From positions 1 through 34,356 of the forward strand of contig JACRBV010000061.1 in assembly GCA_016213065.1 (NCBI GenBank): a DNA stretch of 34,356 bases, in the 5' to 3' direction. Every line of letters starts with the position of its first letter. Within the stretch, counting starts at the first letter, position 1. This DNA is from Deltaproteobacteria bacterium (GTDB lineage: Bacteria > UBA10199 > SPLOWO2-01-44-7). The notes beneath the pieces were generated by a model, which worked only from the letters and a program-made list of their open reading frames with translations, had not been told where the DNA came from and did no database searches. Of the stretch, positions 22-29,873 are shown piece after piece. The translations under genes and the position numbers were made by a program.

Positions 22-807
22 TTATTTTCCCTTTCTTTCTCCGAATATCGCGGAGCCGATGCGTACCATGGTGGATCCTTCCTCGATAGCAATTTTAAAA
101 TCGTGGCTCATTCCCATGGAGAGCTCTGTCAATTTGATTTTATAAAGATAACGCTGATTCATCTCTTTGAGAAGGTTAAAAAGTTCACGGAAATACGGAC
201 GCGATTTTTCCGGATCGTCATCGAAAGGGGGAATCGTCATCAAACCGCAGAGATCAATATTTGAAAGATCATTGAGTTTGGGGATGAGCTCAAAAGCGGC
301 GGAAGGGGTGAGTCCTGTTTTGGTTGTCTCTTTCGATAATTTAATTTCCAGAAGACATTTCAGAGGTTGCAAAAGTGTGGTGGAAAATGCGGGTGACAGC
401 CGTGCGGGGTGCGAGGGCCCCCTTTTCGGGGAGACGCACGCCGTGCGGCTGGCAGGACCCGCATTTTCCACCACCTCCTGTAGAGATTTTTTGTTGATGG
501 CCAAAGCCAGTTCCAAAGAATCGAGGGAATGAAGCCACGCGATTTTGCCGATCACTTTGTTGACCTTGTTTTTTTGAAGATGACCAAGAAAATGCCAATA
601 GATTTTCGACGATAAGCCTTGAGTCTTTTCCATCAATTCCTGCACATAATTTTCGCCAAAATCTCTTTGCCCCGCCTCAAAAGCCTCATGGATTTTGTCC
701 TGAGACTGTCCCTTGCTGACCGCAATAAGACGAACGTTGTTTGTATCCCTTCCGGTTCGAAGGACCGTTTGCCGCACTGCTTCCTTAACATTGTGTAATT
801 CCATCAT
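22..807 (-). CDS. yggS: YggS/PROSC-family PLP-binding protein carrying an in-frame palindromic insertion
   Basis: Family role: cytosolic pyridoxal-5'-phosphate homeostasis protein, a single-domain alanine-racemase-type TIM barrel without a proven catalytic activity. Seen: the N-terminal [10 protein letters not shown] block with the PLP lysine, [19 protein letters not shown], the GLMTIPP block and the C-terminal [23 protein letters not shown] signature. At 261 aa it is about 30-35 residues longer than usual members. The excess lies between INKKSLQE and [11 protein letters not shown], exactly where the DNA is a 98-bp palindrome at 377-474. The inserted residues, roughly VVENAG to STTLLQ, have no counterpart in the family. 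The reading frame stays open on both sides, so the gene is probably still expressed. The insertion is near residues 110-145, where E. coli YggS has a short linker, so folding could be tolerated. No adjacent operon partner is visible inside the window. Identification of the family is secure; functionality of this allele is inferred. Confidence 0.93.
377..474. repeat. 98-bp palindromic element inside yggS
   Basis: The ends are perfect inverted repeats of 18 bp: GTGGTGGAAAATGCGGGT at 377-394 and ACCCGCATTTTCCACCAC at 457-474. Inside, AGCCG and CGGCT pair again, and a GC-rich centre (GGGCCCCC, CGGGG) closes the structure. It lies wholly inside the yggS reading frame and is translated. Its size, palindromic form and in-frame position recall Rickettsia palindromic elements, but the sequence is not one I recognise. 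I saw no second copy of these arms in the window. Confidence 0.85.
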
Positions 808-24202: not shown

Positions 24203-24297
24203 AGCGGTCAGCGATCAGCAGTCAGCTTTCAGCCTGTGAAACGATTGGGTCTTTGTTGGCTGACCGCTGAAAGCTGAAGGCTGAAAGCTTTTTTAAT
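24203..24297. repeat. Inverted arms of GCNNTCA heptamer repeats
   Basis: Left arm 24204-24234 reads as successive heptamers GCGGTCA, GCGATCA, GCAGTCA, GCTTTCA, GCC. Right arm 24258-24289 is GGCTGACC, GCTGAAA, GCTGAAG, GCTGAAA, GC. AGCTTTCAGCC pairs with GGCTGAAAGCT and is followed by TTTTTT at 24289-24294, so it may end FecR gene transcription. GCGGTCAGC can pair with GCTGACCGC as an alternative. The same heptamer type occurs at 25911-26022. Confidence 0.8.
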
Positions 24298-25910: not shown

Positions 25911-26022
25911 AAAAAAGCGATCAGCTGTCAGCCTTCAGCAATCAGCTTTTAATTTTGTTAAAGAAGCGTAAATAAAACCCAATCATTTTTCGGGCCGACA
26001 GATGATTGCTGATCGCTTTTTT
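25911..26022. repeat. Second heptamer-type inverted repeat
   Basis: Left arm has GCGATCA, GCTGTCA, GCCTTCA, GCAATCA, GCTTTTA (25917-25951). Right arm ends in TGATTGC, TGATCGC. The outer 15 bases, AAAAAAGCGATCAGC at 25911-25925 and GCTGATCGCTTTTTT at 26008-26022, are perfect inverses. The position between divergent genes means no terminator is needed, so this looks like a repeat element in its own right. Of the 423-bp gap to pfkA, 26023-26120 shows nothing clear. Confidence 0.8.
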
Positions 26023-27410: not shown

Positions 27411-27501
27411 CGACTTCCGGTGCGAGAGACAGATCATGCTGTTTCGCAAGATTGGCGAGACTTTCCCACGTTCCAACATCCGACTAGCTGAAAGGTGCTT
27501 C
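27388..27501 (-). pseudogene. Remnant of a manC 3' end
   Basis: The minus strand reads EAPFS, a TAG stop, then SDVGTWESLANLAKQHDLSL, then APEVVNQLRQK and TAA. This matches the C-terminus of the intact guanylyltransferase at 28989 (EAPFTWSDVGTWESLANLAKQH...) until the last residues, which differ. About 62 bp are shared with only five mismatches, including a run of 35 identical bases. The TGG codon has become TAG. The end overlaps the pfkA stop by 23 bases, which suggests that the original gene once ended here. It is separated from the intact copy by the DUF4143 gene. Confidence 0.85.
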
Positions 27502-27547
27502 CGTTTCAGCGTATTGTATAAAGTATACCTTCTTTAATACAAAAAAA

Positions 27548-28988: not shown

Positions 28989-29873
28989 TTACACAGAGCG
29001 GGTTTCTAAAATCTCCAGTACTTCTTTGGAAAGTTTCAGAGAGTGTTGTTTCGCAAGATTGGCGAGACTTTCCCACGTTCCCACATCCGACCATGTGAAG
29101 GGTGCTTCCACGACAAGCAGGTCTTTTGACTTTTCCATGATGGCGTAGTCAATCGAGATCGCCGGAGTTTTTTCAAAGAAGTCTTCAATCCGCGTTTCCT
29201 TTTCAAGCAAGGAATAAATTTCGGGCATGAATTTTTGAAAAGCCTCCACCATTTTTGCGACGGGAAAAATAAAAGTGCCGCCGTTCCAGAAATAATTTCC
29301 GTTTTCCAAAAAATGTTTTGCCGTTTTCGCATCCGGTTTTTCCACAAACTCTTTAACCCTGCTGTCCTCCTTATGCAGATAGCCATGATGGGTGGAGGCA
29401 AAAGTGGGCGGAATGCCAATCGTGACAATGGCATTCTGTTTTTCGGCCATTTCAAATGCCTGACGGATGGTTTTACAAAAGACCCCTTCAGGCGTGATGA
29501 ATTGATCCGAAGGAATGGCCATCAAAACGGCGTCTTTGTTTCTCTGCATGAGCTGAAAGCTAACCCAAGCAAGGCAGGGCGCTGTGTTTTTTTTTTGAGT
29601 CTCTCCAAAAATTTGTGAATCGTTTAAAAAAGGCAGTTGTTCTTTCACAAGAGGGACGTAACGCCGGTTCGTGGCGACGAGAATGTTTTGGGGTTCAAAA
29701 AGCTGGCTGAGCCTTTCAACGCTTTGCTGTAACAGCGTTTTTTCCGGGTGGATCAATTTAAGAAATTGCTTCGGTTTTTTAGGCGTGCTTAAAGGGGCAA
29801 ACCGTGTTCCTTCCCCCCCCGCCATAATCAAGGCGTAGAAGGCATTTGACCGTTGCGTTCTGTTTTGCGGCAT
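28989..29873 (-). CDS. manC: Mannose-1-phosphate guanylyltransferase
   Basis: A 294-aa nucleotidyltransferase that makes GDP-mannose from GTP and mannose 1-phosphate for surface glycans. Seen: LIMAGGEGTRFAPLSTPKKPKQFL (nucleotide-binding signature, with FAPLS in place of the usual FWPLS), IPSDQFI, FVEKPDAKTA, NGNYFWNGGTFIF, SIDYAIMEKS and TWSDVGTWESL. It is the short form without the C-terminal phosphomannose isomerase domain. The frame is open to 29912, but the ATG at 29873 has AGGA at about nine bases and leaves only 15 bp to the divergent thioredoxin-like gene. The last 40 residues overlap the duplicated region at 29047, and the final 15 (SLKLSKEVLEILETRSV) differ from the remnant near 27400, which hints that the tail was exchanged. 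Confidence 0.93.
   Translation of the reverse strand: MPQNRTQRSNAFYALIMAGGEGTRFAPLSTPKKPKQFLKLIHPEKTLLQQSVERLSQLFEPQNILVATNRRYVPLVKEQLPFLNDSQIFGETQKKNTAPCLAWVSFQLMQRNKDAVLMAIPSDQFITPEGVFCKTIRQAFEMAEKQNAIVTIGIPPTFASTHHGYLHKEDSRVKEFVEKPDAKTAKHFLENGNYFWNGGTFIFPVAKMVEAFQKFMPEIYSLLEKETRIEDFFEKTPAISIDYAIMEKSKDLLVVEAPFTWSDVGTWESLANLAKQHSLKLSKEVLEILETRSV

Follow-up and report, generated by a model that had tools for sequence, protein, structure and literature searches.

A putative miniature transposon read in frame within yggS of a deltaproteobacterial genome

Introduction

The closest described counterparts of a palindrome lying inside a protein gene are the Rickettsia palindromic elements (RPE; Ogata et al. 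2000, 2002), which, as two later papers describe them (PMC10969869, PMC3733652), are dispersed palindromes of ~100-150 bp that sit in frame in unrelated genes and are read through. Palindromic REPs and MITEs in frame within genes have also been described outside Rickettsia (PMC3733652, PMC2759123, PMC10969869). Intragenic GTAG/CGTC REPs (Di Nocera et al. 2013, PMC3733652) are in-frame palindromes known from numerous species and often found in repair and tRNA-modification genes; the CGTC type consists of a CGTC tag, an 8-9 bp stem starting with AT and a CCA-like tail in a unit of 20-40 bp. Bacterial MITEs, for example intragenic ERIC/RU elements (Delihas 2007, PMC2759123; PMC10969869), are short, non-autonomous, bounded by terminal inverted repeats (TIRs) and flanked by target repeats, and they occasionally give rise to in-frame fusions.

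Here we describe a palindrome within yggS of a deltaproteobacterial draft genome (G000; 1.8 Mb in 155 contigs, some of which end inside copies of the element). The window, that is, the whole stretch of DNA analysed, comprises 34,356 nucleotides. Features of the locus and copies of the element near or within other genes are collected in Table 1.

Table 1. Features of the yggS locus (window coordinates) and copies of the element at other gene-associated sites (contigs of the same genome)
Feature	Location	Strand	Reading	Basis
yggS (pyridoxal-phosphate homeostasis protein, 261 aa)	22..807	-		ORF, Pfam PF01168, PDB homologues, alignment with 29 class relatives
Putative mobile element, 106 bp	373..478	-		limits from 5-bp repeat analysis of 17 copies; composition
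Terminal inverted repeat, left arm GTGGTGGAAAATGCGGGT	377..394	.		perfect complement of 457-474; arms common to other copies
Terminal inverted repeat, right arm	457..474	.		perfect complement of 377-394
GC-rich structured core CCTGCCAG ... CGTCTCCCC-loop-GGGGNCCCTCG ... CTGTCACCC	389..462	-		model R1, alignment A2
Target-site repeat, left, TGCAA	368..372	.		3/5 identical to right repeat
Target-site repeat, right, TGTAG	479..483	.		repeat analysis over copies
prmA copy, GC-rich core or none	C79		in frame	gene backed by Pfam or PDB
rnpA copy, GC-rich core or none	C86		in frame	gene backed by Pfam or PDB
tsaB copy	C38		in frame, cut by contig end	gene backed by Pfam or PDB
PMT_2 (PMT-like) membrane protein copy, short form	C4		in frame	gene backed by Pfam or PDB
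YscJ/SctJ lipoprotein copy, N-terminus	C98		in frame	gene backed by Pfam or PDB
Glycine-rich lipoprotein copy, N-terminus	C2		in frame	
Small exported protein copy, N-terminus, short form	C52		in frame	
Copy just upstream of obg	C60			

Results

The minus-strand ORF at 22..807 is open across the whole palindrome, and both Pfam (Ala_racemase_N, E 3e-16) and PDB pyridoxal-phosphate homeostasis proteins (best E 2e-36) identify its product as YggS, in agreement with the first-pass annotation, which had placed the palindrome in frame within yggS. The PDB homologues align on either side of residues about 111-149, which they lack. From these alignments, the insertion point appears to be the loop between a helix and a strand near residue 110; an AlphaFold model built with no alignment (mean pLDDT 37) was of no use for this position. 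The insert itself occupies residues 111-147, of which 35 derive from the element and two are a duplicated LQ. Since the element plus one target repeat measures 111 bp (37 codons, in frame in yggS) and contains no stop in the frame used, the gene would still be translated through, and the lengthened YggS is presumably functional.

The first-pass annotation had also proposed looking for an empty site in sister genomes. Within the family, the five other genomes examined (G001-G005) all have a YggS without the insert, as do most of the 29 class relatives in our alignment. Removal of the 37 codons leaves a protein of exactly the length of YggS in G001, G002, G003, G004 and G005, which aligns without gaps to IDKKATKPLKCLLE (G003) and IQQRAEKPLACLLE (G001).

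Copies of the arms were then gathered genome-wide by sequence search. The genome proved to contain no fewer than 17 paired copies sharing these arms, so the concern raised in advance that the genome might hold no other copies falls away. Copies of 98-101 bp lie on contigs C98, C60, C2, C79 and C86 and partial ones on C38 and C4 (E 2e-37 to 4e-8); other copies in the genome are 87-94% identical, and the end consensus of the family is GGGAGTGGTGRAAAATGC. When the left and right 5-bp flanks of 17 copies are compared at a distance of 4 nt from the GTGG...CCAC unit, 74 of 85 positions agree, compared with only 6-31 of 85 at other offsets (0 to 8). Twelve of the 17 have perfect repeats, including TTAAA, ATAAT, TTTAA, TTTTT, ATTAA, TTGAT, ATAGT, GTTAT and GTAAT; among the perfect cases are genic copies in rnpA (TTTAA), in the YscJ/SctJ gene (TTAAA) and in two N-terminal signal regions. 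A direct repeat is absent at the copy upstream of obg and at the short copy on C4 (2/5 matches each). On C4 (180-218), another arm, oriented like the first, lies 25 nt away from it, as in a nested or partial insertion. Together, the shared TIRs and the matching flanks at one fixed offset indicate a TIR-bounded, target-duplicating miniature transposon (MITE).

The same fixed offset sets the limits of the element in yggS at 373-478. The palindrome first reported there, 98 bp at 377-474, is real and its 18-bp ends are exact complements as described, but it is only the inner part of this 106-bp unit. The two differences between the repeats of the yggS copy are both synonymous on the coding strand (CTA CAG versus TTG CAA, each Leu-Gln), and drift is a plausible source of their imperfect match. 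The element has a GC content of 0.67 versus 0.43 in the remainder of yggS, and the palindrome strand, folded as RNA, reaches -66.3 kcal/mol versus -36.0 +/- 3.6 for shuffled sequences (z -8.4; 0/200 as low).

Reading frame is preserved wherever it can be measured among copies that have the GC-rich core or no core: in 8 of 8 fully readable cases, element plus repeat comes to 111, 114 or 48 nt, each divisible by 3. The same arms also enclose other interiors (TGTCATCCTGA..., ATTCCGGCG...); these units span 126-290 nt with their repeats, are mostly not multiples of 3, and sit between genes or at gene ends. One copy with another core (C95:3213) extends over the 3' end of rho, whose last codons and stop it provides. 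For the N-terminal copies in Table 1, the gene may really start downstream of the insertion, an explanation that cannot dispose of the copies in yggS, prmA, rnpA and the membrane-protein loop. Inserts are read in more than one frame and in both orientations (for example GSGEKCGSCQP.., and VVQQAGDSRARG.. in rnpA), which indicates that it is not the peptide that is conserved.

To characterize the core, we aligned 13 copies from two genera (alignment A2; G000 and G003). Paired bases fill 95.3% of cells, with 22 two-sided changes, and none of 500 shuffles reaches either value; slid controls pair at 39-49%. Two bulge motifs, CCTGCCAG/CTGTCACCC and CGTCTCCCC/GGGGNCCCTCG, are invariant in all 13 copies, whereas both sides of the stems vary; in the prmA copy, part of a stem is swapped from CCGC/GCGG to AAGC/GCTT. 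Constant bulges within co-varying stems argue that what is preserved in the core is its fold as a nucleic acid, whether its stems are kept paired by selection or by template-switching correction of imperfect palindromes. Rfam scans of the yggS locus and 14 related loci matched no family.

Model R1 detects weaker relatives of the core in two genomes of another family of the same class (G016 and G043), and a second model built from these (R2) has 63 matches in G016, 62 of which were read with their surroundings. Eleven of the 62 lie in frame in genes with Pfam-annotated domains, encoding an ABC transporter, MetH, MiaA, MutL, an RarA/MgsA-like protein, MnmE, FeoB, a PRMT-like protein, a WD40-like protein, an antiporter-type subunit and YggS; a copy in G043 occupies the interdomain linker of MutY. 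Core lengths in G016 are divisible by 3 in 11/11 copies in domain-annotated genes versus 21/34 among copies that no ORF spans (Fisher p 0.019), in a small test whose gene set was picked by open frame and domain match. The arm ends of this family are specific to each copy yet complementary: over the 10 positions outside TTTCAAAAC, complementarity is 0.58-0.82 within a copy and 0.26-0.59 between copies. No direct target repeat was found at any tested boundary in the 62-copy family, which indicates that its core moves differently.

One YggS linker, between the same helix and strand, carries three different palindromes in three families: the element in the window, a G016-type copy in G016, and a palindrome in G019 (CATCCTGAGC...GCTCAGGATG) that likewise keeps the reading frame and has 13 other partial matches in its own genome. 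The site is empty in a relative of G016 (G043) and in a relative of G019 (G039), so the simplest reading is that the three insertions arose independently.

To look beyond the class, we searched 84,980 GTDB species for the exact core pattern, which gave 87 stretches, of which ~9 would be expected by chance, as estimated from base counts. The 80 stretches listed belong to the G003 genome, to numerous Rhodobacteraceae and to a scatter of other species, with no Rickettsia among them. By its identical element sequences, G003 corresponds to Deltaproteobacteria bacterium RIFCSPHIGHO2_01_FULL_43_49. In Rhodobacteraceae, the motif lies mostly between genes, and R1 matches many of the loci (E 1e-6 to 1e-2); because these loci were pre-selected by part of the motif, their homology to the core is suggested rather than proven. 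Intergenic CGTCTCCCC-loop-GGGGNCCCTCG palindromes in Rhodobacteraceae and others, which belong to no Rfam family, are in many cases flanked by CCTGNCAG and CTGTC. BLAST against plasmids and phages gave no full-length match; in viral contigs, the core pattern occurs in two and the TIR in none.

The window contains other repeats as well. Positions 24210-24289 and 25911-26022 belong to another imperfect inverted repeat family with AGCGATCAGC-like words; a similar word, GCTGATCGCT, lies beside C73:15251. A 73-nt direct repeat (27430-27502 and 29037-29109) is 88% identical between its two copies, 1607 bp apart.

Discussion

We consider it likely that the feature in yggS is a copy of a non-autonomous MITE, moved in trans and read through in frame. 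A transposase supplied in trans would cut and join the inverted-repeat ends, and integration would duplicate 5 bp of AT-rich target. A copy with a GC-rich structured core would thus have landed in the YggS loop, where its stop-free 111 bp would allow translation through to a protein 37 residues longer. Selection would purge landings that break genes, such that copies within genes survive only if their length and frame are harmless. We infer both the transposase, probably of the DDE type, and the purging of harmful landings. Around unpaired arms in the 155-contig draft, with some contigs ending in copies, we found no TIR-flanked transposase; the best candidate for a parent transposon, C136:8601, has neither a second arm nor a transposase ORF.

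A second, distinctly less probable account is that the element is a REP-type palindrome spread by a RAYT from single-stranded hairpins, a route proposed for GTAG REPs, the arms being incidental. The genome does encode two RAYT-like Y1_Tnp proteins (C60:7776 and C56:3799), and neither gene could be taken as a parent, there being no good TIR match near either. The core holds a CGTC-tagged hairpin (CGTC-TCCCC-GAAAA-GGGG-CCC), the homologous G016 family has no target repeats, and other cores within the same arms resemble head-to-head REP dimers (TGTCATCCTGA...TCAGAATGACA). HUH/Y1 enzymes are not known to make target repeats, and this account is opposed by the clean repeats of 5 bp that 12 of the 17 copies show at one constant distance from their arms, as well as by the sharing of one arm type by several unrelated interiors. 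REP dimers are reported inside longer palindromes in H. neapolitanus and A. variabilis, and CGTC REPs include RPE-4 and RPE-6 (PMC3733652). The element nonetheless departs from the CGTC consensus, in which the stem should start with AT: its tag is CGTC-like, but its stem is TCCCC/GGGG. It also differs from the 20-40 bp GTAG/CGTC REPs in its length of 106 bp and in having TIRs and target repeats. Like those REPs, the palindromes described here often lie in repair and tRNA-modification genes, those hit including mutY, mutL, rarA-like, AddA-like, mnmE, miaA and tsaB.

Much less probable still is a structured RNA insert that is taken out or passed over when the gene is expressed, by bypass or in the manner of an intron, leaving YggS at its normal length. 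Such an RNA would fit the very stable hairpin, the conserved bulges and the co-varying stems in essential-looking genes such as rnpA, but neither bypass nor splicing would require the element to keep frame, as all eight measurable copies do, and Rfam offers no match. An ancient, vertically inherited insert or an immobile chance sequence can practically be dismissed: an insert shared at saturated divergence had been feared, and another class member, G016, does have one at the same YggS position, but its arms differ and belong, like its core, to the G016 family, the site is empty in the closer relative G043 and in the five family genomes, and other copies in the genome are 87-94% identical.

The analogy with RPE drawn by the first-pass annotation is borne out by the many copies, the in-frame sites in unrelated genes, the empty sites in sisters and the use of several frames, and its suggestion of an independent case in another lineage also held. 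The element appears to work like an RPE and, by sequence and lineage, seems not to be one, a distinction drawn from the exact core pattern in species genomes. Relative to RPE, it has another lineage and sequence, defined TIRs and 5-bp target repeats, and a core with relatives in other families of the class and perhaps in other phyla. Compared with ERIC/RU and similar MITEs, it differs in that most copies with one core lie in frame in conserved genes, whereas copies with other cores are intergenic. Three points are new: the target repeats are clear and the empty site is seen, cores are exchanged within arms of one kind, and a single loop has been used more than once.

More tentatively, and with the odds somewhat against it, a single ancient palindrome family, defined by its folded core rather than its arms, may span phyla, from this class to the intergenic copies of Rhodobacteraceae, and, within this class, have repeatedly become protein-coding and returned to the same tolerated loops. 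If so, the choice or survival of insertions would be predictable, one YggS linker having been hit independently in three families, each time by a different palindrome.

Protein-coding palindromes are best known as an oddity of Rickettsia, and the same outcome is now seen in a distant lineage. Here, the defined ends, the 5-bp repeats and the empty sites allow the mode of entry to be read from the DNA itself. Identical arms with different cores provide a built-in comparison of what genes tolerate, and the YggS loop, entered several times, gives a natural setting in which to test the evolution of linkers through insertion.
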